From contig NZ_AP025483.1 of assembly GCF_024347455.1 (NCBI RefSeq), positions 1,426,001-1,490,000 of the forward strand: a DNA stretch of 64,000 nucleotides, written 5' to 3'. Origin of the DNA: Vibrio echinoideorum. GTDB lineage: Bacteria > Pseudomonadota > Gammaproteobacteria > Enterobacterales > Vibrionaceae. The notes under the pieces are model-generated. The model was not told the DNA's origin and did no database searches. It saw only the letters and a program-made list of their open reading frames with translations. Shown here one piece after another: positions 3 to 62,133 of this stretch. Each line of letters begins with the position of its first letter. The stretch's first letter is position 1. The translations under genes were made by a program, and so were the position numbers.

Positions 3-3000
3 GGTGATATTCCAACCATCGATGCAGTGCCAAGTGTTACGCTCTCAGAAACAAACTTAGCGGATGGTTCTGCACCAAGTGCCGGCGCGGTAAGCTCAAC
101 ACAGACGATTACTTTCACCAACCAAAGTGACGATGTGGTTCGTTTCCGCCTAGAACCAACCGAGTTCAATACCAACGATGCACTTAAATCGAATGGCTTA
201 GCGGTCGAACTGCGTGAAGATCCTCAAGGTTCTGGTCAGTACATCGGTTTTACTACCAGTTCGTCTAATGTAGAGACAACGGTATTTACACTGGACTTCA
301 ACGCCGCAACCTTAGGCGAATACACCTTTACTTTAATCGAAGCTCTGGATCATCAAGACGCGCGTGGCAACAACGATTTAAGCTTTGATCTGCCAGTGTA
401 TGCGGTTGATAGTGATGGCGATGACTCGTTAGTTTCTCAGCTTGGCGTGACCATTGGTGATGACGTACAACTGATGCAAGGCGGTACAATAACTAGTCGT
501 GAGCCCGCTGCGAGTGTAGAAACGTCGAATGTTATTGATGTGATGCCGAAACAAAGCGCTGATGGGGCGAAAGTTACCTCATTCGTTTTTGAGGGGAACA
601 GCGCAGAAAACCTCAATCAAAATGTTAATGGTGAACAAGAGTTTGTCTTCACTGAGGGTTCAGTATTTATTACGACGGAAGGTGAGATACGTTTCGAACC
701 AGTACGTAATCAAAATCATGCTGGGGGTGATATTACCAAGTCTATTGAGGTGACGTCTGTTGACCTCGATGGCGATATTGTCTCATCGACTGTGACGCTG
801 AAGATTATCGATGGTGACCTTCCTACAATCGACCTTGTTCCCGGAATTACGTTATCTGAAGTGGATCTGGCTGATGGCTCTGTGCCAACGGGCAACCCAG
901 TAACGATGACACAAACCATTACTTACACAGTGGGTAGTGACGACGTAAGCCATTTCAGAATTGACCCTACGCAGTTCAATATTTCAGGAGCTTTGAAATC
1001 GAATGGTCTTGATGTTCAGATAAAAGAGCAACCAGCAGATTCCGGTAATTACATTGGTTTCGTGAAAGACGGTTCTAACGTAGAAACCAACGTCTTCACG
1101 ATCAGCTTCTCGACGAGCAATTTAGGGCAATATACGTTCACACTGCTTGAGGCATTAGATCATGTAGATGGATTACAAAACAATATACTAAGCTTCGATG
1201 TCCCTGTTTTGGCGGTTGATGCGGATGGTGATGATTCAGCAATGTCGCCTATGACGGTTGCGATCACCGATGACGTACAAGGTGTTCAAGATGGTACCTT
1301 GAGTATCACTGAGCCTTCATTAGCTGATTTGACATCGGGTACGCGACCTACGACGCCAATCATTGATGTTATGCCAACACAGAGTGCTGATGGCGCGAAA
1401 GTGACACAGTTTACTTACGATGGTGGCACAGCTGTTACGCTAGACCCAAGCATCGCCACAGAACAGGTCTTTACCGTAACCGATGGCTTATTGTATATCA
1501 CCATTGAAGGGGAGGTTCGTTTTGAACCGAGCCGAGATCTTGACCATTCATCCGGCGATATCGTAAGAACGATTGTCGTCACCACCAGTGATTTTGATAA
1601 CGATACAGATACTGCGGATGTCACTTTGACGATCAAAGACGGTATCGATCCAGTTATTAACGTGGTTCCAGATGTTAACTTATCGGAAGTCAACCTAGCG
1701 GATGGCTCGATGCCAAGTGGTTCTGCGGTAAGTTCGACTCACACAATCACTTATACCGAAGGAAGTGATGATTTTAGTCACTTTAGAATTGCTACCAACG
1801 AATTCAATCCTGGCGACCTGCTGAAATCAAGTGGTCTTGTCGTTCAACTTAAAGAAGATCCGGCTTCAGCAGGTGATTACATCGGTTTTACTGATGATGG
1901 CGCGGGCAACGTCACTGACGTATTCACAATTCGCTTTGATAGTGTCAACAAAGGTGAGTTTACTTTTACCTTGATTGAGGCGCTTGATCATCTTAATGGT
2001 GTACTGCATAACGATCTAACTTTCCGTCTACAGGTTTATGCCGTTGATACCGATGATTCTGAATCAACGAAGCGCGATGTGGTGGTTACGATAGAAGATG
2101 ACATCCAGCAAATGCAAGATGGCTTCTTAACCATTACCGAACCAAATACTGGATCACCTACAACGGCGACAGTCGATGTGATGCCAATACCAAGTGCAGA
2201 CGGCGCGAATATTACGCAGTTCACGTACGACGGTGGTTCTCCGATTACTCTGAATCAAAACAACAATGGCGAACAGGAATTTGTTTTCACTGAAGGTTCA
2301 TTGTTTGTCACGTTAGCGGGTGATGTAAGATTCGAACCAAACCGCAACCTAGATCATTCTGCAGGTAACATTGTTAAGTCAATTGTGTTCACCTCTTCAG
2401 ACTTTGATAACGATATCTTTTCCTCAACAGTCACGCTCACCATTATTGATGGCGATGGCCCAACGTTAAATGTTGTACCGAGTGTTAGCCTGTCGGAAAG
2501 CTTGCTTGCTGATGGTTCTACCCCTGGTACAGCCGCGGTCAGTGTGACTCAAACGATCACTTCACTTGCAAGCAGTGATGATATTGCTGAAATAGTGGTG
2601 GAAGTAGGGCTATTCAATACGAGCGGCGCGCTAAAGTCGGATGGTTTGTCACTGAGTTTGCGTGAAGACCCTGAAAATTCGGGCGACTATATTGCATTTA
2701 CTACTGACGGGATGGGTGTAGAAAAAACCATATTCACTCTAGATTTTAATGATGCTAATCCGAGTCAATATACATTCACCCTATTTGAGCGTTTGGATCA
2801 TGTTGATGGCTTAGGAAATAACGATCTGAGCTTTGATCTTTCTGTTTACGCAGAAGATACCGACGGTGATATCTCAGCGTCTAAACCATTGACTGTCACT
2901 ATTACCGATGATGTTCAGCTGATGCAGTCAGGTGCGCTCAACATCACTGAGCCAACTACGGGAACACCCACCACAACAGTCTTTGATGTAATGCCTGCGC

Positions 3001-6000
3001 AAAGTGCAGATGGCGCCACAATCACTAAGTTTACCTATGGTAGCCAACCAGAAGAGTCTCTGGTACAAACCGACACGGGTGAGCAAGAATTTGTGTTCAT
3101 TGAAGGTTCTCTGTTTATCAACCTCGAAGGTGATGTGCGTTTCGAACCTAACCGCAATCTGGATCATTCGAGTGGTAACATCGTTAAGACCATTACGGTG
3201 ACATCGGAAGATAAGGATGGTGATATTGTCACCTCGACAGTAACGCTAACTATTGCGGATGGTGCTCCACCAACTATCGATACAGTACCCACGGTTGCGT
3301 TGGCTGAAGCGAATTTGGTTGATGGTTCTTCACCGATCTTACCTGTGAGTCAGACTGAAACTATTACCTTCACGGAAGGCAGTGATGACTTGAGCTATTT
3401 CCGTATTGATACGGCCCAATTCAACACATCGGGCGACCTGAAAGCGGATGGTTTGGTTGTTCAGCTAAAAGAAGACCCTGCCAACAGCGGCACCTATATT
3501 GGTTTTGTGGAAAGCGGCGGTGTTCAAACGGACATCTTTACCATCACGTTTAGCAGCGTGGTTTTAGGCGAGTACACATTCACCTTGCTGGAAGAGTTAG
3601 ATCATCTGCCAGTACAAGGCAACAATAACCAAATCTTCACTTTGCCAGTAATCGCTGTCGATAAAGACAATACTGACTCAGCGATGAAACCTCTTACGGT
3701 GACCATTACCGATGATGTTCCAACCATCACTGACACCACTGCCGCGAGTACGTTTGTGGTTGATGAAGATGATCTGGGTGTTCTGGCACAAGCGACGGGT
3801 TCGTTTGTAACCACAGAAGGTGCAGACCAAGTTGAAGTTTACGAACTACGCGATATCGCAACTCTGGAAGCAACGCTATCGTCAGGCAATGAAGGTATTA
3901 AGATCACCGAAATCACCGGAGCGGCCAACACAACCACTTACCAAGGGGCAACTGACCCAAGTGGAACGCCAATTTTCACATTAGTGTTGACTGATGATGG
4001 TGCTTACACATTTACCTTACTTGGTCCTCTAGATCATGAGCCTAGCTCAGAGGCGAGAAATAAGCTGCCTATCTCCTTTGATGTAGTGGCTGTTGACAGT
4101 GATGGCGATGATTCCAACCAGTATAAATTACCCATCGAAGTTATTGATGATGTACCGGTAATGACGGCGCCGACTGGTGAAACGGTTGTTGATGAAGACG
4201 ATCTTACTGGCATTGGTTCCGATCAATCTGAAGATACCATTATCAATGGACTGTTCACCGTTGATGAAGGTGCCGATGGCGTTGTTAAATATGAACTGGT
4301 TGATGAAGATTTGGTTCTGACGGGCTTAACCTCCGATGGAGAAAGCTTAGAGTGGTTAGCTGTTTCACCGATTGGCACAACATTTACCTATACTGCTCAA
4401 ACGGTGACGAGTAATGAGGCGGTGTTCGAAATTGTTTTCGATACCTCAAACAACAGTTATCAGTTTGAACTGTTTAAACCTCTGAAACACCCTGATGGTG
4501 CCGATGAAAACAACATCGAACTTGATTTCTCGGTCGTGGCTGAAGATTTTGATCAAGACCAATCAAACGCAATCGACTTAAAAATTACGGTAACCGATGA
4601 TGTTCCGTTAGTGACAACTCAATCGATTACTCGTCTTGAAGGTCAGAATTACAATGGTTCTAAAGTCGATATGTTTGCTGATGCTACTGATATTGGTGCT
4701 GATGGGGCGGTTCTCAGTCGAATTGAAGGTATTACTAGCAACGGTGCAGATATTGTTTTCCGTACAGGAAATAGTGGTTCTTACAGTGATGGTTTCGATT
4801 TAAACAGTGGTACTCAACAGGTTCGTGTTTATGAGCAAACCGATGATGGTAGTGGCATAGTTACTAGAGAGCTTGGCCGATTACGTATTAACTCAAATGG
4901 TGAAGTGGAATTTAGAGCCAATGGCTACCTGGATCATGATGGTGACACTATCGACTTCTCTATTAACGTGATTGCGACAGATGGAGACTTAGACACCTCT
5001 GAAACACTGTTAGATATCACGATTACTGATAGGGACTCTACCAGAATAGCGCTGAAAGTGACTACTTTCGAGGACGCGGGTAGAGATTCAACGATACCTT
5101 ATGCAACGGGCGATGCGCCGACTCTTGAGAACGTTCAAGATAACCAGAGTGGTTTGCCTAATGCGCCAGCTCAAGTTGCGCTGCAAGTTAACCTGTATGA
5201 CCAAGATAACAACGAGTCTATCGGCCAACTGACGATTCAAAACAGCAACCACAGAGGCTCGTTCTATTACTTTGATGGCATGGAGTATCACAAGCTAGAT
5301 CCAGAACCTAACGGCGATATCATATTTGATGCCTCTGTGATGGACCAAAGTTTTGATCCAAACCCGAATGAAGCAAGACAAACCATTGCGACGATCGACA
5401 ACCTGTTCTTTGTCCCTGACCAAAACTTTGGGTCAAATAACAATGGTGTACGAATCAATTATGAACTTGAAATTGATAACAATGGCACTCCTGATCACAC
5501 CATTAATTCAAACTTTAGAATTGAGATTGAAGCTGTGGCTGATATCGCGACTTGGGATGACACCAATAGTACGTATCAGTATCAAGTGAACGAAGATGAA
5601 GACAATGTCACGTTACAGTTGAACGCAGAATCACAAGATAACAGCCGCACTGAAACTATCACCTATGAACTAGAAGCTGTGCAGGGCAGCGGTGAGTTTG
5701 AGTTGCTCGATCAAAGTGGCAACGTGCTTACGCCGACTGGTGGTGTTTATATTATCGCTGCTGGTGATATCAATAGCACCGTGGTCAACCCTATTGATAA
5801 CTTCTCTGGTCAAATTGAGTTTAAAGCAACAGCGATAACGGAAGAGACGCGTAACCCATACGATGATGCGGCCAACGGTGGAGCTAACGATAAGACGACA
5901 GCTCGCTCGGTAGAGCAAAACATTATTATTGATGTGACCGCAGATGCGGACCCTGGCACATTCAGTATCAGTCGAATTCAGATCAACGAAGACAATATTG

Positions 6001-9000
6001 ATGATCCTGATTATCTAGGTCCTTTGGACAATAAAGATGCGTTCACGCTAGACGAAGTCATTACCATGACAGGGTCGGTGGATACTGACGGCTCTGAAAA
6101 ACTATTTGTTCGTATTAACAATATTACTGAAGGCGCGGTGCTTAGCAGTACTGATAGCAATGTAATCATCAACACTGTGACTATCAATGGCATCGTTTAC
6201 CAAGAGATTGCTTATTCTGACTTAGCGAAAATTGAAGTTACTCCGACTAAACACAGCAATGTTGATTTTACCTTCGATGTAACGGGTGTAGTTAAAGACA
6301 CTGCGACCTTGTCTACTGGTTCGCAAGTCGATGAAGAAATTTTAGGGACTAAAACGGTTAATGTTGAGGTTAAAGGTGTCGCTGATGTTCCTTACGGTGG
6401 GACGAATGGTACAGATTGGACAACGTTTACAGATGGCTCGACAAACGGTGTTCAAACTACCATTGAAGAGAGTCAAAATGGCGATAGCTTTGCTCTGCTT
6501 GACTTCACTGTGTTGTCTGGAGAAAGAAGACCTGATACCGGTACTACGCCATTAGCTGATGATGGTTCAGAATCCATCACTGTGATTCTATCGGGCATAC
6601 CCGACGGAGTTATTCTCGAAGACGGCGACGGTACAGTGATTGATCTTAACTTTGTTGGTTACGAGACTGGACCGGGCGGCAGTCCTGACTTATCCAAACC
6701 TATCTACGAAGCGAACATTACTGAGGCGGGTAAAACTTCAGGTATTCGCATCAGACCTGTCGACTCTTCAACCGAGAATATTCACATTCAAGGTAAAGTG
6801 ATTGTGACTGAGAATGATGGTCATACACTGTCCTTCGATCAAGAGGTTCGAGTGCTTGTTATACCTCGAATCGACACATCAGCAACTTATGTCAATACGA
6901 CTAACGGTGATGAAGATACGGCTATCAACATTGATTGGCACCCCGAAGGTGCAGACTATATTGATTCTGATGAGCATTTCACTTCGATTACGATTTCCGG
7001 TATTCCATCGGGTGTCACACCTACCGTAAATGGTGATGTTACTGTTGTAAATGATGGTGCAGGTACGTTAACGATTACACCTAAAGACGCGAGTCAAACA
7101 CCGGAACAATTTACTCAAATTGCATTAGCGAATAACTTCATTCAAATGACGCCTCCGGCTGATTCTAGTGTAGATTTTACGTTGACCACCGAACTTAAAA
7201 TGGAAGAGCGAGATCATGAGTATACGTCTAGCGGCCTAGAGGATAAAGATGGTGGTTATGTCGAAGCCGATCCAGATATAACCGGAATCATTAACGTTCA
7301 AGTACGACCGGTGGTTGAACCAGGAGATGCCAATAACAGACTTGTTGTCGATGAGATTGCAGGTCTTACAGATCTAACAACAGCGGTTGCAGATGCTCTG
7401 ACCGGTGTCCTTAAATTTACAACCAATAGTGACAATACATCGGTAACGGATGAGTTCGTTATTCGTTACGAAGAAACTGATGCTTCGTCTGCTATCGAAG
7501 AAGTGGACCAGTTAGTTATTCAATTAACAAACGTGGACGACTCTGCGCTATCAGATGATGTGCTCAATCAGTTACTTGTTATTGGTGCTGCTTATGAAGG
7601 CAATGGTCGCTGGGTTGTTACCAATGAAGATCTGTTTAGTATCAGTGCACCGAACGGGCTTACTTTTCCTCCTGTCTCTAATCTCCCGAACGTTTTCAAT
7701 GACATTAAGATGACCATCTTTAGTACAGTGATTGATCGCGGTGATGGTTTCGAAACTGAGTCGTCACCAGCAGTTCAGAGGGAAGGTGAAGTGAACTTGT
7801 CGTTCCCAGAAGTGCTTGTTGGTGGAAATGAGGTTGCCGCAGATATTGCGATTGTAGAAGACAGCGTTATCGATGCTGTAGAAGATATTCAGCTTGATCT
7901 CGGTGCGGCGTTAAACGGTATTCTGAGCTTTACTGGTCGAGACGGTTCTACCGACCAAGTGACGGTAATCATCGATGGCACTCTGGTTATAGATTCTAAT
8001 ACATCATTCCCAATTAGCCTGTCGGGAACAAGTGATGTTGACTTTGTGAACGGAAAATATGTTTACGAGACTACAGTAGAAAAGGGTGTAACTGTTGATT
8101 CATCGGGCTTGTTACTGAACCTGCCACCAAACTACTCAGGTGACTTTAGGTTGCCGATGACCATAGTGACCAAAGATCTACAATCTGGTGATGAGAAAAC
8201 CTTAGTTACTGAAGTCGTCATCAAAGTTGCACCTGATGCAGAGACGGATCCAACGATCGATGTCACTGTCGTGGGATCTTTTGATGATGCCTTTAACCCT
8301 GTCGATACTGATGGTCAGAGTGGACAAGATCCAGTTGGTTACGAAGACACCTATATTCAGCTCGATTTCAACTCGACCATTTCGGATCAAGTTTCAGGCG
8401 TCGAGGGTGGTCAAGAAGAGTTTACGTCTATTACTTTAACGTTGGACGACCCTTCTATTGGTGCATTCTATGACAATACGGGTACCTCATTAGGTACATC
8501 TGTCACGTTTAATCAGGCTGAAATAGCGGCAGGTGCTCTAGATAATGTGCTCTTTAGAGCTGTAACAAACTACCCAACGAGTAATGATATTAACCAAGTG
8601 CAGGTTAATGTCAGCGGAACAGTCACAGATACAGCAACCTATAATGATCCTGCTTCACCTGCCGGCACTGCGACCGACAGCGATACTTTTAATACAAGCG
8701 TTAGCTTTGATGTTGTTCCTGTTGTCGATGATGTACTTGTTACAGGTCCGGGCAGTGATCCGGATGTTATCGAGATTACCGGTAACGAAGACCAGCTTAT
8801 TTCTTTGTCAGGAACGGGGCCTGTATCGATCGCACTGACTGACCTTGATGGATCAGAGCAGTTTGTTTCGATTAAGTTTACGGATGTTCCTGATGGCTTC
8901 CAGATGCGTGCGGATGCTGGCTCGACATACACCGTGAAAAATAACGGTAATGGAGAGTGGAGTGTTCAACTGCCTCAAACTTCAGGGCTTTCATTCGACC

Positions 9001-12000
9001 TGAGTGAGATTTCGATCTTACCGCCTAAAAACTTCAGTGGTACTGCCGAGTTTGGCGTTGAAGTATTCACTCAAGAATCTTTGCTGGGTGTACCTACAGC
9101 GGCGGCAAACTTACCAAGCTTCAAACTGCATGTGATACCTGTTGGTGACGATGTTGATACTAACCCGATCGATTCTGTTACAGGCAATGAAGGCCAAAAT
9201 ATTGATATCGAAATCAATGCGACCATTTTGGACAAAGAGCTGTCGGCAACAGGAAGTGGAACGTTTACCGAAAACGCACCAGAAACACTTCGGGTTGAAG
9301 TGGCGGGTGTGCCTCAAGATGCTTCTATTTTCTATCCAGACGGTACGACATTGGCTAGCTACGATCCGGCAACACAACTTTGGACATTGGATGTTCCGGC
9401 TCAGTCGCTCGATAAGATCGTATTTAATTCGGGTGAACACAACAGCGATGCGGGCAATGCGCTTGGCATCACTGGACCACTGCAGATTACGGTGCGTTCT
9501 GTGGATACAGACGCTGACAATACGGAATACTTGGGTACGCCAACCAGTTTCGATGTTGATTTGGTGATTGATCCTATCAACGATCAACCGACGTTTGTGA
9601 ATGTGACCAACATTGAAACGCCGGAAGACATCAGTATCGCTATCGACAACTTTAGTATCTACGACGTCGACGCTAACTTTGATAACCCAGATGCGCCTTA
9701 TATTCTTACGTTGCAAGTGGATCAAACATTGCCGGGAGCGCAAGGCGTGTTTGAGTTCACTAGCTCACTTGACGTGTCGTTTGTATTGCAGCCTGATGGT
9801 TCGCTTGTGATTACAGGTAAAGAAGCTGACATCAATACCGCTTTGACCAATGGGGCTGTGACATTCAAACCAGACCTTGACCAGAACTACCTTAATCAGA
9901 ATGGGTTGGTTACGATCAATGCAACGCTTGATGACGGTGGTAATAACGGCTTGATTGACGCGGGTGATCCGAATACCGCTCAAACCAATCAAACTACTTT
10001 CACTATTAAAGTGACAGAAGTGAATGACGCTCCGGTCGCTACCGATGTTGATTTGGGCTCGATTGCCGAGGAGGGTCAACTTGTGATTGTTGAAGGTGAT
10101 TTGATTACAGCAAGTTCTGATTTAGAAAATCATAACCTCACAGTAGCGGGCGTGACTCTTACTCAAGGTCAAGGTCAATTACAGCGCTTTGAGAACGCAG
10201 GTGGTGCTGACAACGCTACGGTTACAGGCCCATTCTGGATATTCACGGCAGCCAATGACTTCAATGGCGATGTTAAGCTTGGTTATTCGATTATTGATGA
10301 TGGTACCACCAACGGTGCGCCTGACTTCCTAACAGACAATGCGGAAATCAGCCTTGTAGTGACAGAAGTCAACGACCAACCAGTGGCAACCAATGTTGAT
10401 TTAGGCACCATGCCAGAAGAAGGCCAGTTGATCATTAAAGCGGAAGATCTAATTGCTGCGACGACAGACCCTGAAGGCGATGCGATTACAGTGACTGGGG
10501 TTGCTATCGACCAAGGTCAGGGACAGCTTCAGAAGTTTGAAAATGTTGGCGGTGTAGATGACAACTCGATCAATGGCCCATACTGGGTATTCACTGCAGC
10601 TGATGATTACAATGGTGACGTTAAATTCACTTATACCGTGGAAGATGATGGCACAACCAATGGCGCGAATGACTTCTTAACGGATACTGCTGAAATCAGT
10701 GTTGTGGTAACGGAAGTGAATGATCAGCCTATAGCAACGGATATCGACTTAGGAAACATCCTTGAAGAAGGCCAGCTGATCATTAAAGAGGGCGACTTAA
10801 TTGCTGCGACAAGCGATCCGGAAAATGACACGATTACCGTGACTAATCTGGTGCTCGATGAAGGCCAAGGCCAGTTACAGCGCTTCGAGAACGTAGGTGC
10901 TGATGACGCTATGATTTCTGGCCCGTACTGGATATTTACGGCGGCTGATGAATACAACGGTAACGTTAAGTTCACCTATACCGTTGAAGATGATGGTACA
11001 ACCAACGGTGCTAGTGACTTCCTAACGGATACTGCAGAGATTACCGCGACTGTCGATGGAGTGAATGATACACCTGTTGTCAATGGTGACAGTGTCACTA
11101 CGGTTATTGACGAGGATGTTGGTCAGCTATTGAGTGGCATCAATGTCAGTGACCCTGATTATGTTGATACATTTTCTGATGATCTCATGACCGTCACGCT
11201 GACTGTAGATTACGGTACATTGAATGTATCACTTCCGGCAGTGACGACGGTGATGGTCAACGGCAACAACACCGGTTCGGTTATCTTAGTTGGCACTTTG
11301 AGTGACCTAAATGCACTGATTGATACGCCAACCAGTCCAAACGGTGTCTACCTTGATGCGAGCCTGTCTCCAACCAATAGCATTGGCTTAGAAGTTGTCG
11401 CCAAAGACAGCGGAAACCCTTCGGGTATCGCGATAGAGACGACGCCTGTGGTTTACAATATCGCGGTGACGCCAGTCGCGAATGCACCAACCTTGTCGGT
11501 TGATACTGCGTCTAATTACGTGAGAAACATTACCGCGAGTCAGTCAGTCAGTGCGAGTGGCATTCCTTTGGTTGGAATTATCGCGGCCTTAACGGACATT
11601 ACTGAGGAGCTAACGCTGCATATCAGCGATGTGCCTGCTGGTGCTCAAATCACTAGTGACGTTGGTTCTGTGACCGATCTCGGTGGTGGTGTTTGGGTGG
11701 CAACGGCAGATGCGATCGATAGCTTGCAAGCAGTAGGGCTTTCTCAAACTCCGGGTAGTTACACGCTTAAAGTTGAGGCGGTTTCTGAAGAGACTGACAA
11801 CAACGATACGGCGACATCAGCTTCAATCGACCTTAACCTGAATATTGTGTCTGACGCGGTCGATATTAATCTGGCTTCGGAAACTGACGATATTCAACTA
11901 TTGGCTAGCGCGAATGCGACTGACCTAACTGCGGGTTCTGGAAATGATCGACTGGAAGGTGGCGCGGGTGACGATACGCTTGTTGGCGGTGATGGTAACG

Positions 12001-12377
12001 ACACACTGATTGGCGGCGGTGGTTCAGATATTCTAACCGGTGGCGATGGTATGGACTCGTTCGTATGGCTTAATATCGAAGATGGCGTTGAAGACACCAT
12101 TACCGATTTCAGCCTATCTGAAGGTGACCAGATCGACTTGCGCGAAGTATTGCCAGAGCTGAAGAACACATCTCCAGACATGACGGCGTTACTGCAACAG
12201 ATAGACGCGAAAGTGGAAGGGGATGATATTGAGCTTACGATCAAGTCTGATGGTTTAGGTACCACGGAACAGGTGATTGTGGTTGAAGATCTTGCTCCTC
12301 AGTTGACGCTAAGCAGCACCATGCCGTCAGACATTCTGGATGCGTTAGTACAGCAGAATGTCATAACTCACGGTTAA
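3..12377 (+). CDS. Giant RTX/cadherin-like repeat adhesin, type I-secreted (5' partial)
   Basis: The frame is open to the left window edge, so the N-terminus is missing; about 4,120 residues are visible. Five long repeats, each starting with a VPxVxLSExxLADGS-like motif, begin near nt 27, 838, 1666, 2476 and 3286 (period about 270-276 residues). They are followed by domains starting DDVPxxT (near 3709, 4147, 4600), a long variable stretch, and three cadherin-like repeats at 10020, 10368 and 10716 (348, 348, 345 bp). The C-terminus has GGxGxDxLx calcium-binding nonapeptides (about 11930-12065) and a DTITDFxLxEGDxIDL segment typical of the T1SS_VCA0849 secretion target. Acidic DxDGDD motifs throughout suggest calcium binding. 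By family this is an extracellular biofilm or surface adhesin exported by a LapBCE-type machine. A hairpin terminator follows. Attachment to algal or particle surfaces is inference. Confidence 0.9.
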   Translation, partial: GDIPTIDAVPSVTLSETNLADGSAPSAGAVSSTQTITFTNQSDDVVRFRLEPTEFNTNDALKSNGLAVELREDPQGSGQYIGFTTSSSNVETTVFTLDFNAATLGEYTFTLIEALDHQDARGNNDLSFDLPVYAVDSDGDDSLVSQLGVTIGDDVQLMQGGTITSREPAASVETSNVIDVMPKQSADGAKVTSFVFEGNSAENLNQNVNGEQEFVFTEGSVFITTEGEIRFEPVRNQNHAGGDITKSIEVTSVDLDGDIVSSTVTLKIIDGDLPTIDLVPGITLSEVDLADGSVPTGNPVTMTQTITYTVGSDDVSHFRIDPTQFNISGALKSNGLDVQIKEQPADSGNYIGFVKDGSNVETNVFTISFSTSNLGQYTFTLLEALDHVDGLQNNILSFDVPVLAVDADGDDSAMSPMTVAITDDVQGVQDGTLSITEPSLADLTSGTRPTTPIIDVMPTQSADGAKVTQFTYDGGTAVTLDPSIATEQVFTVTDGLLYITIEGEVRFEPSRDLDHSSGDIVRTIVVTTSDFDNDTDTADVTLTIKDGIDPVINVVPDVNLSEVNLADGSMPSGSAVSSTHTITYTEGSDDFSHFRIATNEFNPGDLLKSSGLVVQLKEDPASAGDYIGFTDDGAGNVTDVFTIRFDSVNKGEFTFTLIEALDHLNGVLHNDLTFRLQVYAVDTDDSESTKRDVVVTIEDDIQQMQDGFLTITEPNTGSPTTATVDVMPIPSADGANITQFTYDGGSPITLNQNNNGEQEFVFTEGSLFVTLAGDVRFEPNRNLDHSAGNIVKSIVFTSSDFDNDIFSSTVTLTIIDGDGPTLNVVPSVSLSESLLADGSTPGTAAVSVTQTITSLASSDDIAEIVVEVGLFNTSGALKSDGLSLSLREDPENSGDYIAFTTDGMGVEKTIFTLDFNDANPSQYTFTLFERLDHVDGLGNNDLSFDLSVYAEDTDGDISASKPLTVTITDDVQLMQSGALNITEPTTGTPTTTVFDVMPAQSADGATITKFTYGSQPEESLVQTDTGEQEFVFIEGSLFINLEGDVRFEPNRNLDHSSGNIVKTITVTSEDKDGDIVTSTVTLTIADGAPPTIDTVPTVALAEANLVDGSSPILPVSQTETITFTEGSDDLSYFRIDTAQFNTSGDLKADGLVVQLKEDPANSGTYIGFVESGGVQTDIFTITFSSVVLGEYTFTLLEELDHLPVQGNNNQIFTLPVIAVDKDNTDSAMKPLTVTITDDVPTITDTTAASTFVVDEDDLGVLAQATGSFVTTEGADQVEVYELRDIATLEATLSSGNEGIKITEITGAANTTTYQGATDPSGTPIFTLVLTDDGAYTFTLLGPLDHEPSSEARNKLPISFDVVAVDSDGDDSNQYKLPIEVIDDVPVMTAPTGETVVDEDDLTGIGSDQSEDTIINGLFTVDEGADGVVKYELVDEDLVLTGLTSDGESLEWLAVSPIGTTFTYTAQTVTSNEAVFEIVFDTSNNSYQFELFKPLKHPDGADENNIELDFSVVAEDFDQDQSNAIDLKITVTDDVPLVTTQSITRLEGQNYNGSKVDMFADATDIGADGAVLSRIEGITSNGADIVFRTGNSGSYSDGFDLNSGTQQVRVYEQTDDGSGIVTRELGRLRINSNGEVEFRANGYLDHDGDTIDFSINVIATDGDLDTSETLLDITITDRDSTRIALKVTTFEDAGRDSTIPYATGDAPTLENVQDNQSGLPNAPAQVALQVNLYDQDNNESIGQLTIQNSNHRGSFYYFDGMEYHKLDPEPNGDIIFDASVMDQSFDPNPNEARQTIATIDNLFFVPDQNFGSNNNGVRINYELEIDNNGTPDHTINSNFRIEIEAVADIATWDDTNSTYQYQVNEDEDNVTLQLNAESQDNSRTETITYELEAVQGSGEFELLDQSGNVLTPTGGVYIIAAGDINSTVVNPIDNFSGQIEFKATAITEETRNPYDDAANGGANDKTTARSVEQNIIIDVTADADPGTFSISRIQINEDNIDDPDYLGPLDNKDAFTLDEVITMTGSVDTDGSEKLFVRINNITEGAVLSSTDSNVIINTVTINGIVYQEIAYSDLAKIEVTPTKHSNVDFTFDVTGVVKDTATLSTGSQVDEEILGTKTVNVEVKGVADVPYGGTNGTDWTTFTDGSTNGVQTTIEESQNGDSFALLDFTVLSGERRPDTGTTPLADDGSESITVILSGIPDGVILEDGDGTVIDLNFVGYETGPGGSPDLSKPIYEANITEAGKTSGIRIRPVDSSTENIHIQGKVIVTENDGHTLSFDQEVRVLVIPRIDTSATYVNTTNGDEDTAINIDWHPEGADYIDSDEHFTSITISGIPSGVTPTVNGDVTVVNDGAGTLTITPKDASQTPEQFTQIALANNFIQMTPPADSSVDFTLTTELKMEERDHEYTSSGLEDKDGGYVEADPDITGIINVQVRPVVEPGDANNRLVVDEIAGLTDLTTAVADALTGVLKFTTNSDNTSVTDEFVIRYEETDASSAIEEVDQLVIQLTNVDDSALSDDVLNQLLVIGAAYEGNGRWVVTNEDLFSISAPNGLTFPPVSNLPNVFNDIKMTIFSTVIDRGDGFETESSPAVQREGEVNLSFPEVLVGGNEVAADIAIVEDSVIDAVEDIQLDLGAALNGILSFTGRDGSTDQVTVIIDGTLVIDSNTSFPISLSGTSDVDFVNGKYVYETTVEKGVTVDSSGLLLNLPPNYSGDFRLPMTIVTKDLQSGDEKTLVTEVVIKVAPDAETDPTIDVTVVGSFDDAFNPVDTDGQSGQDPVGYEDTYIQLDFNSTISDQVSGVEGGQEEFTSITLTLDDPSIGAFYDNTGTSLGTSVTFNQAEIAAGALDNVLFRAVTNYPTSNDINQVQVNVSGTVTDTATYNDPASPAGTATDSDTFNTSVSFDVVPVVDDVLVTGPGSDPDVIEITGNEDQLISLSGTGPVSIALTDLDGSEQFVSIKFTDVPDGFQMRADAGSTYTVKNNGNGEWSVQLPQTSGLSFDLSEISILPPKNFSGTAEFGVEVFTQESLLGVPTAAANLPSFKLHVIPVGDDVDTNPIDSVTGNEGQNIDIEINATILDKELSATGSGTFTENAPETLRVEVAGVPQDASIFYPDGTTLASYDPATQLWTLDVPAQSLDKIVFNSGEHNSDAGNALGITGPLQITVRSVDTDADNTEYLGTPTSFDVDLVIDPINDQPTFVNVTNIETPEDISIAIDNFSIYDVDANFDNPDAPYILTLQVDQTLPGAQGVFEFTSSLDVSFVLQPDGSLVITGKEADINTALTNGAVTFKPDLDQNYLNQNGLVTINATLDDGGNNGLIDAGDPNTAQTNQTTFTIKVTEVNDAPVATDVDLGSIAEEGQLVIVEGDLITASSDLENHNLTVAGVTLTQGQGQLQRFENAGGADNATVTGPFWIFTAANDFNGDVKLGYSIIDDGTTNGAPDFLTDNAEISLVVTEVNDQPVATNVDLGTMPEEGQLIIKAEDLIAATTDPEGDAITVTGVAIDQGQGQLQKFENVGGVDDNSINGPYWVFTAADDYNGDVKFTYTVEDDGTTNGANDFLTDTAEISVVVTEVNDQPIATDIDLGNILEEGQLIIKEGDLIAATSDPENDTITVTNLVLDEGQGQLQRFENVGADDAMISGPYWIFTAADEYNGNVKFTYTVEDDGTTNGASDFLTDTAEITATVDGVNDTPVVNGDSVTTVIDEDVGQLLSGINVSDPDYVDTFSDDLMTVTLTVDYGTLNVSLPAVTTVMVNGNNTGSVILVGTLSDLNALIDTPTSPNGVYLDASLSPTNSIGLEVVAKDSGNPSGIAIETTPVVYNIAVTPVANAPTLSVDTASNYVRNITASQSVSASGIPLVGIIAALTDITEELTLHISDVPAGAQITSDVGSVTDLGGGVWVATADAIDSLQAVGLSQTPGSYTLKVEAVSEETDNNDTATSASIDLNLNIVSDAVDINLASETDDIQLLASANATDLTAGSGNDRLEGGAGDDTLVGGDGNDTLIGGGGSDILTGGDGMDSFVWLNIEDGVEDTITDFSLSEGDQIDLREVLPELKNTSPDMTALLQQIDAKVEGDDIELTIKSDGLGTTEQVIVVEDLAPQLTLSSTMPSDILDALVQQNVITHG
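10020..11060 (+). repeat. Three tandem 345-348 bp cadherin-like repeats inside the adhesin
   Basis: Each unit starts at a VNDxPxAT motif, continues through EEGQL and GQGQLQ, and ends DGTTNGAxDFLTD. Starts are 10020, 10368 and 10716, and a fourth VNDTP at 11061 opens a different domain. The strict spacing and closeness of copies suggest recent duplication and a recombination-prone segment. Confidence 0.85.
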
Positions 12378-28115: not shown

Positions 28116-28832
28116 ATGGCTAGCACTTTTAATTCAATTTCGGGCTCGAAGCGTAGCCTACACGTGCAAGTAGCACGCGAAATCGCTCGTGGAATTTTGT
28201 CTGGCAATTTGCCACAAGGTTCTATTATCCCTGGTGAAATGGCGTTGTGTGAACAGTTTGGTATCAGCCGAACGGCACTTCGTGAAGCAGTTAAACTGCT
28301 AACTTCTAAAGGTTTGCTAGAGTCCCGCCCGAAAATCGGTACTCGTGTAGTGGACCGTGCATACTGGAACTTCCTTGATCCTCAACTGATTGAGTGGATG
28401 GACGGCTTAACCGACGTCGATCAGTTTTGTTCACAGTTTTTGGGTCTTCGCCGCGCGATTGAACCTGAAGCGTGTGCATTGGCGGCAAAATTTGCGACTG
28501 CTGAACAACGTATCGAGCTTTCAGAGATCTTCCAAAAGATGGTAGAAGTGGATGAAGCTGAAGTGTTTGACCAAGAGCGTTGGACAGACATTGATACTCG
28601 TTTCCATAGCTTGATCTTTAATGCGACAGGAAACGATTTTTACCTGCCATTTGGTAACATTCTGACTACGATGTTCATCAACTTCATCGTGCACTCTTCT
28701 GAAGAAGGAAGTACGTGTATCAATGAACACCGTAGAATCTATGAAGCTATCATGGCCGGTGATTGTGACAAGGCGAGAATTGCTTCTGCCGTTCACTTGC
28801 AAGATGCTAACCACCGTTTGGTGACTGCGTAG
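28116..28832 (+). CDS. FadR-subfamily GntR regulator A (probable uronate/alginate regulator)
   Basis: 238 residues. The N-terminal winged helix-turn-helix (about 15-80) has the recognition region QFGISRTALREAVKLL, and the wing ends in RPKIGTRV. The C-terminal all-helical FCD ligand domain (about 95-230) has family metal-ligand positions in DTRFHSL and NEHRRIYEAI. It is a near-copy of regulator B at 55445, with identical recognition helices and similar promoters (TGTTATAGT and TTAAATAATACATA in both). Such proteins usually repress until a sugar acid binds. It is the natural candidate to read the TTGTAnTACAA sites; that assignment, and the ligand (DEH, KDG or oligomer), is inference. Confidence 0.9.
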   Translation: MASTFNSISGSKRSLHVQVAREIARGILSGNLPQGSIIPGEMALCEQFGISRTALREAVKLLTSKGLLESRPKIGTRVVDRAYWNFLDPQLIEWMDGLTDVDQFCSQFLGLRRAIEPEACALAAKFATAEQRIELSEIFQKMVEVDEAEVFDQERWTDIDTRFHSLIFNATGNDFYLPFGNILTTMFINFIVHSSEEGSTCINEHRRIYEAIMAGDCDKARIASAVHLQDANHRLVTA

Positions 28833-38153: not shown

Positions 38154-38174
38154 TACTATATTTGGAGTTTGAAC

Positions 38175-39056
38175 ATGACTAAACCTGTAATTGGTTTCAT
38201 TGGCCTAGGTCTTATGGGCGGCAACATGGTTGAAAACCTGCAAAAGCGCGGCTACCACGTAAACGTAATGGATCTAAGCGCTGAAGCTGTTGCTCGCGTT
38301 ACTGACCGTGGCAATGCGACTGCATTCACTTCTGCTAAAGAACTCGCTGCGGCAAGTGACATTGTTCAGTTTTGTCTTACAACTTCAGCTGTTGTTGAAA
38401 AAATCGTATACGGCGAAGACGGCGTTCTAGCGGGCATCAAAGAAGGCGCAGTACTAGTAGACTTCGGTACTTCTATCCCTGCTTCTACTAAGAAAATCGG
38501 CGCAGCTCTTGCTGAAAAAGGTGCGGGCATGATCGACGCTCCTCTAGGCCGTACTCCTGCACACGCTAAAGATGGTCTTCTGAACATCATGGCTGCTGGT
38601 GACATGGAAACTTTCAACAAAGTTAAACCTGTTCTTGAAGAGCAAGGCGAAAACGTATTCCACCTAGGTGCTCTAGGTTCAGGTCACGTTACTAAGCTTG
38701 TGAACAACTTCATGGGTATGACAACTGTTGCGACTATGTCTCAAGCTTTCGCTGTTGCTCAACGCGCTGGCGTTGATGGCCAACAACTGTTTGATATCAT
38801 GTCTGCAGGTCCATCTAACTCTCCGTTCATGCAATTCTGTAAGTTCTACGCAGTAGACGGCGAAGAGAAGCTAGGTTTCTCTGTTGCAAACGCAAACAAA
38901 GACCTTGGTTACTTCCTTGCTCTTTGTGACGAGCTAGGTACTGAGTCTCTAATCGCTCAAGGTACTGCAACAAGCCTACAAGCTGCTGTTGATGCAGGCA
39001 TGGGTAACAACGACGTACCAGTAATCTTCGACTACTTCGCTAAACTAGAGAAGTAA
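38175..39056 (+). CDS. Beta-hydroxyacid dehydrogenase family, candidate DEH reductase
   Basis: 293 residues from ATG 38175, chosen for GGAG 7 nt upstream; an in-frame TTG lies 6 nt earlier. The N-terminal Rossmann motif GFIGLGLMGGNM, the substrate-binding segment DAPLGRTPAHAKDG and the catalytic lysine K174 in GHVTKLVNNF place it with 3-hydroxyisobutyrate / tartronate semialdehyde reductases. In this setting the likely substrate is DEH, reduced with NAD(P)H to KDG, which KdgK then phosphorylates. A DEH reductase of this family in V. splendidus 12B01 is recalled but not checked. The SDR at 54326 is a second candidate for the same step. Confidence 0.85.
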   Translation: MTKPVIGFIGLGLMGGNMVENLQKRGYHVNVMDLSAEAVARVTDRGNATAFTSAKELAAASDIVQFCLTTSAVVEKIVYGEDGVLAGIKEGAVLVDFGTSIPASTKKIGAALAEKGAGMIDAPLGRTPAHAKDGLLNIMAAGDMETFNKVKPVLEEQGENVFHLGALGSGHVTKLVNNFMGMTTVATMSQAFAVAQRAGVDGQQLFDIMSAGPSNSPFMQFCKFYAVDGEEKLGFSVANANKDLGYFLALCDELGTESLIAQGTATSLQAAVDAGMGNNDVPVIFDYFAKLEK

Positions 39057-39103
39057 TCGACGTACGACCTCGCTAGGGTATTGCTTGTCTTCTAGGCGGC
39101 GAT

Positions 39104-39125
39104 ACCTCGGCGAGGTTCGTTTTTA
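39104..39125 (+). terminator. Probable terminator of the dehydrogenase gene
   Basis: ACCTC-GGC-GAGGT hairpin followed by TCGTTTTTAT. A longer pairing of ACCTCGC (39067) with GCGAGGT is also possible. Confidence 0.6.
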
Positions 39126-39474
39126 TCTGCAGTTCTGCTTTTTCGTAAATCCATTCATAACCGTTTCTTGCGTTCGTCCTTTCTTCCTTTCAAGCTCGCT
39201 TTGTTTCTTCCTTTTTGTGCCTCATTTCCTTTGCGTTACCCAAGCAAAGCTCTATTTATTTCTGTTCTTACTTTTACCTTTGTTCTAGTTAGTTCTACTT
39301 TGATTTCAACTTTCAACTTCATAAATCTTCAAGCAACTCTCCCTTCAGTAAGCCAATCGCCAATCTTTTGGTAAACAGAACCTTTAGTAAACTAAGCTAC
39401 TAGCATATCCGTCTCAAACGTTTAAAACCTACACTGACGTTGCATTACTCATCGATCGAATACTTAAAAAGAAA

Positions 39475-39685
39475 GCAAAAAAAAGCCCACACAGCTGGTG
39501 ACTATGTGGGCGTGCTCGGACGAGCCGTCTGAAAAAAAGGATGAACAATTTAAAGTGAAATAACGATTAACGAGATCCCCCGACAGTCTCTACGTTAAAA
39601 GTGTTCAATGACCTCAAAGCAAATTGCTTCAATTACCACTTTGAATTGAACAAAAGTATCCAGAAAGAACTTAAGTTTTGATTCA
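39475..39685 (-). ncRNA. Candidate structured small RNA of the alginate regulon
   Basis: On the minus strand, a sigma70-like promoter (TTGTAA, 17 nt, TATGGT at 39691-39696) overlaps a perfect TTGTAnTACAA operator (39709-39719). Transcription would start near 39685. The transcript folds into a long imperfect hairpin (about 39602-39652): TGTTCAAT with ATTGAACA, TCAAAG with CTTTGA, and inner AATTG-AAG-CAATT. A GAGA/TCTC hairpin then exposes a run of five G. It ends at a strong terminator, GCCCACA/TGTGGGC (39485-39511), followed by eight T. No ORF with a ribosome site is seen. Length would be about 200 nt. Strand is set by the T-run, which exists only on the minus side. Confidence 0.55.
39485..39511 (-). 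terminator. Intrinsic terminator of the candidate small RNA
   Basis: GCCCACA / TGTGGGC stem with trailing TTTTTTTT on the minus strand. No minus-strand protein gene lies upstream of it. Confidence 0.8.
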
Positions 39686-39708
39686 AATACACCATACCTT
39701 AGGGGTTA

Positions 39709-39719
39709 TTGTATTACAA
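39709..39719. promoter_or_regulatory. Putative operator TTGTATTACAA of the candidate small RNA
   Basis: Perfect palindromic halves. It lies about 450 bp from the chemoreceptor start but at promoter distance from the minus-strand transcript. Confidence 0.6.
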
Positions 39720-40015
39720 ATAAATGTTAAAACTTAATGCCTTTAGTGAATGGTTGGTTTGCGAAAGTGTGAGTTGTTCCTCACTTTTCTACGCAAACAG
39801 ATAACGCAGAAAAATTGATTTTAGTGAGGTGGATTATCGACGAAAATACCAACTTATCGCAGTGGATTCGATTTAATTACAAGTTTTTGCCTTTTTACTA
39901 TAGGTTGATAAAAGTTAAGACTAATAACTGATACCTATGTCACAGAGTGTTTTTAGTCATTTTAAATATATCAAAGTCGCTCACAGAAAGGATGGTTAAT
40001 TAAACATACAATATT

Positions 40016-40056
40016 AGTTGAAGTTGAAGTTGAAGTTGAAGTTGAAGTTGAAGTTG
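40016..40056. repeat. Hexanucleotide tandem repeat (AGTTGA, nearly 7 copies) upstream of the chemoreceptor
   Basis: Six exact AGTTGA units plus AGTTG, 106 bp before the chemoreceptor start. Such arrays change length by slippage and could alter promoter spacing. Confidence 0.9.
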
Positions 40057-40161
40057 TACGGATGTGTCGACATGAATACGCTGCGTTTCACCGTATCTAC
40101 GATAATGCAAAAAATAACCACTTTGTTCGGATGAAAATAATAGATATAGGTTGTACGGATA

Positions 40162-42087
40162 ATGAGTTTTATGAATTCAAAACTGTCTCTAGGGTTCAAA
40201 GGTAAGCTGATTTTGATGGTGGCGATCGTCAGTTCCAGTGCTCTGGTATTTACGAACTGGTTTACGCTCGACTTGGCCACAGATCAGGTCAACCAAACGA
40301 TATACAACGAGATCGACCACTCGCTAACGATAGAAATTAATCACATTGAAAATACCGTTCAGAGAACCATCGATACCGTAAATTCAGTTGCACAAGAGTT
40401 CATGAAGTCACCATACCAGGTACCTAACGAAGCGCTTATGCATTATGCCGCTAAGCTAGGGGGCATTGACAAAATTGTGGTGGGTTTCGACGATGGACGT
40501 TCTTATACATCTCGGCCTTCTGAGTCTTTCCCTAACGGTGTTGGGCTAAAAGAAAAATACAACCCAACGACTCGCCCTTGGTATCAACAAGCGAAACTGA
40601 AGTCAGGTTTATCTTTTAGTGACTTATTTTTCACTAAGAGTACTCAAGTACCTATGATAGGTGTGACGTATTCGTATCAAGACCGCGTAATCATGGCAGA
40701 CATTCGATTTGATGACTTAAAAGCGCAACTCGAACAGTTGGATGGCATTTACGAAGCGAAAGGCATCATTGTTGATGAAAGAGGGATGGTTGTTGCTTCA
40801 ACAATAGAGAACGTTCTTCCGCAAACCAATGTATCTTCTGCGGATACTCGTATGAAATTAAACAGCGCGATAGAACTGCCTGATCAGTTTATTGAAGGCG
40901 TGATTAATGGTTACTCAAGAATCTTGATGGCTAAAAAGGTTGATATCGGTAACCAAAAAGAGTGGTACATGATATCCAGTATCGACCCCGAGTTAGCTCT
41001 TGATCAATTGAATGGTGTGATGTCGAGTACTCGAATTCTGATTGTAGCTTGTGTATTTGGTTCGGTGATATTGATGATATTGCTTCTGAATCGTTTCTAC
41101 CGCCCAATCGTATCACTTCGTAAGATTGTTCATGATTTGTCTCAAGGTAATGGTGATTTAACTCAAAGATTGGTAGAGAAGGGTAATGATGACTTGGGGC
41201 ATATCGCTAAAGACATCAACTTGTTCATCATTGGCTTGCAAGAAATGGTTAAAGACGTGAAATTCAAGAACTCAGATTTGGATACCAAAGTCTTAAGTAT
41301 TCGAGAAGGTTGTAAAGAAACCAGCGATGTATTGAAAGTTCATACAGACGAAACCGTTCAAGTTGTCTCTGCGATTAATGGGCTTTCAGAAGCGTCAAAC
41401 GAAGTTGAAAAGAGCTCTCAATCGGCGGCAGACGCAGCGCGAGATGCGGCTGCGTTCAGTGATGAGACCAAGCAAATCAATACGGTGACTGAAACGTATA
41501 TCAGTGACCTTGAAAAGCAAGTGTGTACGACTTCCGACGACATTCGCTCTATGGCCAACGAAACGCAAAGTATACAGTCGATTGTCTCTGTGATTGGCGG
41601 TATTGCTGAACAAACCAACTTGCTGGCATTGAATGCGTCGATCGAAGCAGCGCGTGCCGGCGAACACGGCCGAGGTTTTGCTGTGGTGGCTGATGAAGTT
41701 CGTGCACTGGCTAATCGTACACAAATCAGCACCTCGGAAATAGAAGAAGCGCTGTTGGGTTTACAGTCGAAGTCGGATGGTCTAGTTAAATCGATTGAAC
41801 TGACCAAGAGTAATTGTGAGATGACTCGTGCTCAAGTTATCCAAGCGGTAAACATGCTGGCTAAGCTAACTGAGCAGATGGAAACCGTGAGCCGTTTCAA
41901 TAACGATATTTCTGGGTCGTCTGTGGAGCAAAATGCATTGATTCAGAGTATTGCTAAGAACATGCACAAGATTGAAAGCTTCGTTGAGGAGCTGAACAAG
42001 TTAAGCCAAGATCAACTGACAGAGTCGGCAGAAATCAAAACACTTAATGGTAGCGTCAGTGAGCTTATGAGCAGCTTTAAAGTTTAG
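40162..42087 (+). CDS. Methyl-accepting chemotaxis protein with periplasmic Cache-type sensor
   Basis: 641 residues. A membrane helix at about 14-35 is followed by a periplasmic double-Cache-like domain (about 40-285) with the [10 protein letters not shown] motif. A second membrane helix (about 290-312, ending LLLNRFYRP), a HAMP domain (about 313-365) and the cytoplasmic signalling domain follow. The signalling domain has the near-invariant hairpin tip in [20 protein letters not shown]. It relays ligand binding to CheA/CheW. Its place between the dehydrogenase and the PL7 lyases suggests it senses alginate or its oligomers; that is inference. A hexamer repeat sits in its upstream region. ATG 40171 is an alternative start. 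Confidence 0.92.
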
Positions 42088-59173: not shown

Positions 59174-59923
59174 TTAGAAGCTGTAAGTAAGACCTACACG
59201 GCTACGTAATTCACGAGTTGCTTTTGTTGAAGAAGTGCTCACATCACCAAATTCTACATACGGTGCCCATTGACCCATAATGTGGCGAATACTTGCGTTC
59301 AACTCGTAGTTGGTATCATCGTTATCGTAGATGTCGTAATCGTCAGCTTTGTAGTAGTTACCTTCAAAACCGAAACGCCAGTTTTCTATTGAGTAGTTAA
59401 CGTTTGCCGTTAGACGATGACGACGCTGATTAGAAACGTTTTTATCAACCGTGATTGGTACACCGTCACTATCAACGATAACGTCGCCATTACTATCGAA
59501 CTGGTACTCTGAGCTGCTCGTGTTCTGTCTCATATCGTAACGGTAACGAGCACTTAGGCTTAAACCGTCAATGCTATCCACTTTGTATGTTGCACGAACT
59601 TGAGGTTTATACGTAACGCCAGATTCGCGACCTTCAATCGGCATACCGTAAGTCATCGTCCAATTGTCGTTAAGTACGTGACGGTAGTTTAGACCAAGCT
59701 CCCAGCCATTATTCTTCAAGTCTTCCATGAATTTACCGTCTTCTCCCTTGAATTTTGCTTCGATATCTACAAGGAAGTTGCCAATGCTATCGCCCAGTTT
59801 TACACGAGTAGCGTGTTGATCTGTGTGACTCTTGTATTCGTGTCTCATATCGAAAGACGCCGCAGATACAGAGCCAGCAGCGAGTACAGATGCCACAGCA
59901 ATCACGATTTTAGTTTTATTCAT
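59174..59923 (-). CDS. KdgM-family outer-membrane oligouronate porin no. 2
   Basis: 249 residues with a signal peptide ending near GSVSA. Beta-barrel strands (FDMRHEYKSHTDQHATRVKLG, LSARYRYDMRQ, RRHRLTANVNY) end in a C-terminal phenylalanine (LRSRVGLTYSF). It is shorter than porin no. 1 but has the same pattern of Arg/His-rich inward strands that suits acidic oligosaccharides. It likely passes alginate oligomers into the periplasm. A half operator (AAATAATACAA, ending 60059) and a near-perfect site (60271) lie upstream. Confidence 0.87.
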   Translation of the reverse strand: MNKTKIVIAVASVLAAGSVSAASFDMRHEYKSHTDQHATRVKLGDSIGNFLVDIEAKFKGEDGKFMEDLKNNGWELGLNYRHVLNDNWTMTYGMPIEGRESGVTYKPQVRATYKVDSIDGLSLSARYRYDMRQNTSSSEYQFDSNGDVIVDSDGVPITVDKNVSNQRRHRLTANVNYSIENWRFGFEGNYYKADDYDIYDNDDTNYELNASIRHIMGQWAPYVEFGDVSTSSTKATRELRSRVGLTYSF

Positions 59924-60774
59924 GGTATTAGTTCCATATTTATAGGTTGAGTATTGGCCCTAATTTCGAGCCAAATAGAGTAGTTCTTGTCTTTAATGCA
60001 TTTGGTTGTAGAGATAATCGTTTAATTACCAAACATTTATTTGCATTTAAATAATACAAATATGCTAACGATTAGAGTGCTGTGGTTCTGTGAATTAGAT
60101 CGTGTTGTCATGATAAACCCCCTATTTACAAAGGGTTACAAAGTAAGGGTTATAATATAACTCATTGTTTTAAAGTGACTTGTCAAATCAGTCTCGTCGA
60201 TTTATAGAGTTTTCTCTGTCAATAAATGTGCGCTACAGCAAAAATTCGAATCTTTAATTACCATTTTTATTTGTAATACATTATTATTTACTAACTTTCA
60301 GCGGCGATACATATGTTTGACATGTTGAATGTATGCTCATGTAGAGCGTGGATAGGTGAACTGATGGTTCATCTCTGAATTTCCAAGAGTGGATTACAAG
60401 TTAAAACGCTTTAAAAGCGAACATGGTTTAAAGGCTCTAAGCGGTTGAGAGGTTATGAAAGGTTATAAAGGTGCAAAAGCTAAACGTGGTTTAAAAGCTG
60501 TAGTGATTTAAAACCTACGGCACTTGAAAACCTACGACATTTTGAAACTTAAAGTAGCTTAAAAGCATTCGGCATTTGCTTGAGGTGATTGAAAGCCTCA
60601 AACAGAGAAGGATTGAAGTGTAGTAGGCAAGTCAGTGACATAGCCTGCTATATAGGTCTGACTTTGGTGCGATTGGGAACCGTCGCTCTAAACTGATGAC
60701 AAAAGAAGAAATCGTTGAAATGCTCGTAAGAGCATTTTGATTATTGCTCCTAACTATTCTAATTATAACTTCTG
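59924..60774. other. Intergenic region with operator-like sites and degenerate repeats
   Basis: About 850 bp without a recognisable gene. It holds a half operator at 60049-60059 and TTGTAATACAT at 60271-60281. From about 60400 to 60570 there are degenerate repeats built on GGTTTAAAAGCT and GAAAACCTACG. AAATGCTC-GTAA-GAGCATTTT at about 60718-60740 is a possible terminator. Confidence 0.5.
60271..60281. promoter_or_regulatory. Operator-like site TTGTAATACAT
   Basis: One mismatch to the consensus, 348 bp upstream of the porin start. It could control a long leader or a separate transcript. Confidence 0.4.
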
Positions 60775-60857
60775 CTTTCCTTTAGAGAGGTAGGAGATGA
60801 CAGTGAAGATCTGTCTTTGCGCTCATGTTGATACAGGCAACATGGGCGTTTTTTTTG
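60774..60857 (+). ncRNA. Possible short non-coding transcript
   Basis: TTGATT (60738) and TAATTA (17 nt later) make a sigma70-like promoter. Downstream is a hairpin GACAG-TGAAGAT-CTGTC, then a strong terminator CGCTCATGTTG/CAACATGGGCG with eight T (60820-60856). An unpaired GAGAGGTAGGAG precedes the first hairpin. The result would be an 80-85 nt RNA. A 29-codon ORF (ATG 60797) overlaps the terminator and is probably not coding. Confidence 0.4.
60820..60856 (+). terminator. Strong intrinsic terminator not attached to any protein gene
   Basis: 11-bp stem CGCTCATGTTG / CAACATGGGCG (one G-U) followed by eight T. Confidence 0.85.
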
Positions 60858-61830: not shown

Positions 61831-61841
61831 TTGTAATACAA
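61831..61841. promoter_or_regulatory. Putative operator TTGTAATACAA between MORN gene and SSS no. 3
   Basis: The most symmetric copy in the window: ATTTGTAATACAAAT is an inverted repeat over 15 bp. Confidence 0.6.
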
Positions 61842-62122: not shown

Positions 62123-62133
62123 TTGTAGTACAA
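62123..62133. promoter_or_regulatory. Putative operator TTGTAGTACAA of SSS no. 3
   Basis: Perfect palindromic halves, 61 bp before the start: the same distance as in the paralogue at 33495. Confidence 0.65.

Follow-up and report, generated by a model that had tools for sequence, protein, structure and literature searches.

This study revealed that the minus strand at 39477-39719 of a 64,000-nucleotide stretch of the Vibrio echinoideorum genome (the window) has the sequence anatomy of a self-contained transcription unit, composed of an operator, about 224 nt and an intrinsic terminator. Judged by comparative sequence, the locus is a real, conserved small RNA gene, which we refer to as sRNA1. 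The original prediction, which placed a small RNA gene under an operator of the alginate island, is thereby strongly supported. We consider it probable, at roughly two chances in three (about 0.68), that sRNA1 is a stand-alone, GntR-repressed and alginate-induced small RNA of the alginate regulon, acting in trans by base pairing.

The sRNA1 unit and its operator

Read downward from 39720 on the minus strand, the unit consists of TTTGTAATACAATAACC, about 224 nt, a stem-loop and TTTTTTTT (Table 1). The perfect TTGTAnTACAA operator that had been predicted is present without a mismatch. It is also found in the 20 aligned sRNA1 copies, but these copies were located by that string. The overlapping sigma70-like promoter was borne out in part: the TACAAT hexamer lies within the operator, but a sigma-70 scan of 39000-40200 returned no promoter or consensus site, and the -35 box of sRNA1 is consequently regarded as weak. 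The conserved block farther upstream, with its inverted repeat, may contain candidate activator sites. The strong terminator with eight T was recovered as described, and it is one-way: only on the minus strand does the T-run lie 3' of the hairpin, where it gives sRNA1 a U-rich 3' end. No gene follows on the same strand, as a cis-acting leader or riboswitch would require, and the GarR-like gene lies on the opposite strand in 20/20 genomes. With an intrinsic terminator and a promoter of its own, recognized by sequence only and with a weak -35 box, the unit has the composition of a stand-alone gene.

Table 1. Features of the sRNA1 locus and related elements, in positions of the window.
Feature	Position	Strand	Basis
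sRNA1, predicted transcript of ~224 nt; start placed from the -10 box, +/- a few bases	39477..39701	-	covariance model R1, 20/227 genomes; conservation profile
Operator TTGTAATACAA, over the -10 box TACAAT (39713-39708)	39709..39719	-	exact match to TTGTAnTACAA
Conserved upstream block with inverted repeat GTGAG-N6-CTCAC	39734..39783	-	alignment; bin frequency 0.82-0.89 for 39780-39721
Intrinsic terminator: stem 39511-39485, then eight T at 39484-39477 (TTTTTTTT)	39477..39511	-	11-pair stem with 6 G-C pairs
Hairpin with G-rich end (GUCGGGGGAU)	39569..39596	-	mean pair probability ~0.9 over 19 copies
Near-invariant 5' segment TTTGAATCA(A/T)AACTTAAGTTCTTTCTG, putative pairing segment	39661..39687	-	alignment A1; bin frequency 0.99 for 39680-39661
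GntR-A regulator (GntR + FCD domains), candidate repressor	28116..28832	+	Pfam
GarR-like hydroxyacid dehydrogenase gene, convergent neighbour	38169..39056	+	Pfam and NCBIfam (under NCBIfam cut-offs); 20/20 genomes
Methyl-accepting chemotaxis protein (MCP) gene, divergent neighbour	40162..42087	+	Pfam, synteny
sRNA2, candidate RNA unit; operator-like TTGTAATACAT, terminator of its own	60271..60857	+	divergent from the KdgM porin gene 59174-59923

The operator is shared with the surrounding island. The window contains 16 TTGTAnTACAA sites with at most one mismatch vs 3.86 expected, a number reached in none of 100 shuffles. Ten exact palindromic sites exist in the whole genome (5.74 Mb), six of which are located within the 64-kb window, where 0.11 would be expected. 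Given that a reversed control pattern has 18 sites genome-wide vs 10 for the operator, the motif is clustered rather than enriched across the genome. Exact operators precede the SSS genes 13536, 33495 and 62194, and another is found between kdgF and PL17. The promoter of sRNA1 bears the operator of this regulon, the putative binder being GntR, and we take TTGTAnTACAA to be a FadR-type consensus, appropriate to a candidate GntR/FadR-type repressor. Outside the island, one exact operator is located 137 nt upstream of a chromosomal gene, read as a TRAP binding protein (without a family search), and three are located on contig C2, none of them in front of a gene recognized as an alginate gene. SSS gene 62194 is preceded by two exact operators (61831-61841 and 62123-62133), about 290 nt apart, and its matching gene is likewise preceded by two sites in L076, L077, L078 and L079.

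The island comprises PL17 and PL7 lyases, a kdgF-like cupin, a PfkB kinase and a KDPG aldolase. It also has three transporters of the SSS type, a binding protein of the TctC type (whose neighbours are named TctA and TctB from their position), two porins of the KdgM type, one MCP, one GntR regulator and two further GntR relatives. The divergent neighbour of sRNA1 is an MCP gene in 17/20 genomes and a PL7 alginate-lyase gene in 3/20, the 20 being the window itself and 19 relatives. Orthologues of GntR-A (at least 92% identity) occur in 22 of 227 genomes; in 20 of these, sRNA1 is found 6-11 kb from GntR-A within the same contig. In one of the two others (G232), GarR leads directly to PL7_50245 on one contig, and the other (G196) is rearranged at GntR-A. 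A PL17 lyase is present in 92/227 genomes vs 20/227 for sRNA1, which indicates that alginate use does not generally require sRNA1; by its distribution, sRNA1 belongs to the GntR-A block and not to alginate use as such. Elsewhere in the window, a short tandem run of GTTGAA units is found at 40017-40056, about 100 nt before the MCP start, and a very long open reading frame (4116 aa) occupies 27-12377 (+), at the start of the window.

Conservation and folding of sRNA1

DNA matching sRNA1 was found in 22 of the 227 genomes of the genus, the match being near full length at 81% identity or more in 20 of them and 25 bp long in the remaining two. These 20 genomes are Splendidus-type Vibrio, each with a single copy, and the covariance model R1 (built from 19 of the 20 copies; stricter filters, more than 40 genomes searched) retrieved the same 20 of 227 and none besides, with 260 bits for the window copy at 39704-39477. 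The copy L023, which is absent from A1, A2 and R1, matches R1 and is included in the 20-copy conservation profile. One of the 25-bp matches (G175) lies in an unrelated setting and was read as chance; the other (G245) corresponds to the promoter of a unit adjoining a KdgM-type porin gene. No sRNA1 DNA was detected in 24 genomes of the order that belong to other families. The G-rich core, used as an exact pattern, matched nine stretches in a named genome collection, six of them in Vibrio, including V. splendidus, V. crassostreae and V. lentus, in line with the Splendidus clade that had been guessed at the outset. The three others were in distant metagenome-assembled genomes and were taken as chance.

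The distance from operator to T-run is 238-244 nt in all 19 copies measured. Over the 20 copies, the mean frequency of the commonest base per 20-nt bin is 0.84-0.99 from operator to terminator vs 0.24-0.74 outside; farther upstream it is 0.61-0.74 at 39920-39781 and rises again to 0.77-0.87 toward the MCP gene. No Rfam family matched the window at its gathering score, and the best weak matches in 39440-39740, with 18.2 and 17 bits, are far under the cut-offs.

The window copy is predicted to fold with a minimum free energy of -56.7 kcal/mol (z -2.88), a stability that none of 200 shuffles equalled, and the z-score is negative in 19/19 homologues, ranging from -1.45 to -6.85 (60 shuffles each). 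The consensus fold begins with a 5' hairpin, followed by a long broken stem that encloses two hairpins (one with the G-rich end), then by a hairpin of three pairs and by the terminator. Of the long nested hairpin with a G-rich loop that had been noticed in the sequence, the G-rich stretch stands at the end of a conserved hairpin. When folded alone, 4/19 copies (L007, which is the window copy, and L008, L024 and L026) do not form the long outer stem, and L026, the most divergent copy, does not form the G-rich hairpin either. Predicted pairs form in 99.0% of 1176 cells vs 29-44% when the partner is slid. Changes on both sides affect 3/62 pairs and 11 cells; no shuffle out of 500 reaches 11 cells, the three compensatory pairs are equalled by 100/500 shuffles and the number of pair types by 188/500, all of these counts being inflated by the relatedness of the copies. 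As most pairs never vary, compensatory support is modest, so that conservation of the hairpin with compensatory change, proposed as a check on the RNA, came out positive to that modest degree. The two arms of the predicted 5' hairpin differ, the 5' arm being variable and the 3' arm near-invariant, an asymmetry that would be expected of a target-pairing segment.

Proposed mode of action and alternatives

Beyond the anatomy, conservation, kept structure, synteny and shared operator, we infer transcription, the repressor, the inducer and base pairing in the following way. sRNA1 would be kept off by a GntR/FadR-type repressor that occupies the TTGTAnTACAA site over the -10 box. Alginate breakdown products would release the repressor from sRNA1 and from the transporter and catabolic promoters bearing the same site, and the upstream element would probably assist the weak -35 box. 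About 224 nt would be transcribed up to the intrinsic terminator, and the folded RNA would expose its near-invariant 5' segment, which could then pair with mRNAs, most likely outside the island.

Target searches covered a complement of the 5' seed and gene leaders within the island. The 24-nt complement of the 5' seed (G-U allowed, at most three mismatches), searched for in 16 of the 20 genomes with sRNA1, gave matches not above a reversed control in 16/16. A recurring match with two mismatches (G000, G018 and G234) falls, in G000, well within a coding frame and was discarded; one further two-mismatch match was found in G018 only. Pairing with the island leaders was scored by a crude energy method combining duplex and opening cost, and 35 leaders of the window were first scanned without controls. 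In a controlled test, ten genes with leaders from at least eight genomes were compared with 24 column-shuffled controls, 14 further genes, SSS among them, being dropped for having too few leaders. None of the ten, which include the KdgM porin 48846 and PL7 lyases, surpassed the controls; the best score, for PL7_42344, was matched by 5/24. A pairing at the start codon of KdgM 48846, seen in the window, did not hold, with 21/24 controls as good. The proposal that the RNA represses competing pathways or tunes porins accordingly received no support from these ten island genes.

The absence of an mRNA target from these searches and the invariant G-rich hairpin would both suit an RNA that is made but has a mode of action other than mRNA pairing, such as binding to a protein or to a different RNA. 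We regard this as unlikely, although it is the best placed of the alternatives. The window copy contains only two GGA motifs, and not the many GGA in hairpin loops of a CsrB-type RNA, while pairing between sRNA1 and sRNA2 was equalled by 57/60 controls. The near-invariant and single-stranded-looking 5' segment is better suited to pairing.

There is very little chance that the transcript encodes a small protein, either as a short mRNA or as a dual-function RNA. In favour of coding, small ORFs (20 and 21 codons) occur in the window copy, 14/20 copies have in common one start-stop pair spanning 12 codons or more, and a 43-aa hydrophobic frame exists in a unit with the same promoter core in two other genomes. 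Nevertheless, no ORF of at least 12 codons is common to all 20 copies; the 20-codon ORF is kept in 6/20, with an internal stop in several copies, and the 21-codon frame contains a one-base gap in 5/19. No conserved coding capacity is apparent in sRNA1, in agreement with the view that no protein gene accounts for the unit. Equally improbable is that there is no RNA gene at all, the operator serving the divergent MCP or PL7 genes, between which and sRNA1 it sits in 20/20 genomes, and the hairpin terminating GarR transcription, given that the terminator is one-way, that a terminator-like site lies closer to GarR (39104-39116, +), that about 440 nt separate the operator from the start of MCP and that the whole body is conserved, not just its ends.

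A second candidate unit and known systems

We also identified a second candidate RNA unit, sRNA2, with the promoter core TTTATTTGTAATACATTA near 60271 and a terminator with eight T at 60819-60857. Its DNA was matched in 44/227 genomes, in 35 of them with E no higher than 4.7e-16; every one of the 20 sRNA1 genomes belongs to these 35. The core TTTGTAATACATTA is identical in 27 aligned copies, which were chosen by part of that core (L104, L107 and L108 being excluded); L108 has no operator by the search string. The 5' part of sRNA2 is variable, and its last 125 nt show a mean conservation of 0.958 with 78 invariant columns in a 28-copy set that excludes L098 and L107. No Rfam family matched sRNA2 at its cut-off. 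A relative of its 3' part (L107) is present in G211, where GntR and PL17 gave no match at the thresholds used, which argues against a strict tie of sRNA2 to alginate.

The terminators (2/500 shuffles) and the promoters (1/500) of sRNA1 and sRNA2 are more alike than shuffled sequences. A shared seed was rejected: without terminators, the bodies align no better than shuffles, 465/500 of which score as high, or 302/500 under gentler scoring. Two genomes, G245 and G016 (L076:14284-14415 and the matching place in L077), have a porin-side unit with the same promoter core and a hydrophobic 43-aa ORF; the protein is identical in both though the DNA differs, which suggests coding.

We tentatively propose, with somewhat less than even confidence, that in Splendidus-type Vibrio two small RNAs form an RNA arm of the alginate regulon, both co-induced with the alginate genes and re-tuning functions elsewhere in the genome. 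The two would share a near-identical promoter core without detectable kinship of their bodies, sRNA2 being more widespread and located beside KdgM, and sRNA1 being linked to the GntR-A/PL7 block. It would be unusual for one sugar island to carry two such RNAs.

Among the matches listed for the V. splendidus small RNA and alginate-regulation literature, no title or abstract start describes sRNA1; the LGP32 catalogue may hold it. This small-RNA catalogue of V. splendidus LGP32, a strain of the same clade, was reportedly established by Toffano-Nioche et al. in 2012 and may list sRNA1 under a number. Alginate breakdown by Vibrio serves as a model for the marine carbon cycle, and the texts available explain its control in terms of proteins. 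If the proposed reading is correct, a dedicated, conserved small RNA would provide a handle on the genome-wide re-tuning that occurs when cells meet alginate.

The alginate locus of Vibrio sp. C42 is, from the portion of the report available, of the same kind as this island: it comprises lyases, SSS, TTT, a porin, an MCP and three gntR genes, and most of it is induced by alginate, two of the three gntR genes being up (PMC13390454). In the passages available, control is discussed through proteins, and the term 'sRNA' appears 0 times in the main text (PMC13390454). Vsr217 of Vibrio tasmaniensis LGP32, as presented in the available part of its description, is a small RNA of the MalT maltose regulon, made from the malK 5' UTR under activation by MalT, that lowers fbp mRNA expression in trans (PMC8265627). 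In contrast to Vsr217 as described there, sRNA1 has a predicted promoter of its own, a repressor-type operator and no downstream gene on its strand. Like Vsr217, it would be a Vibrio small RNA tied to a sugar-use regulon, in this case through its operator.
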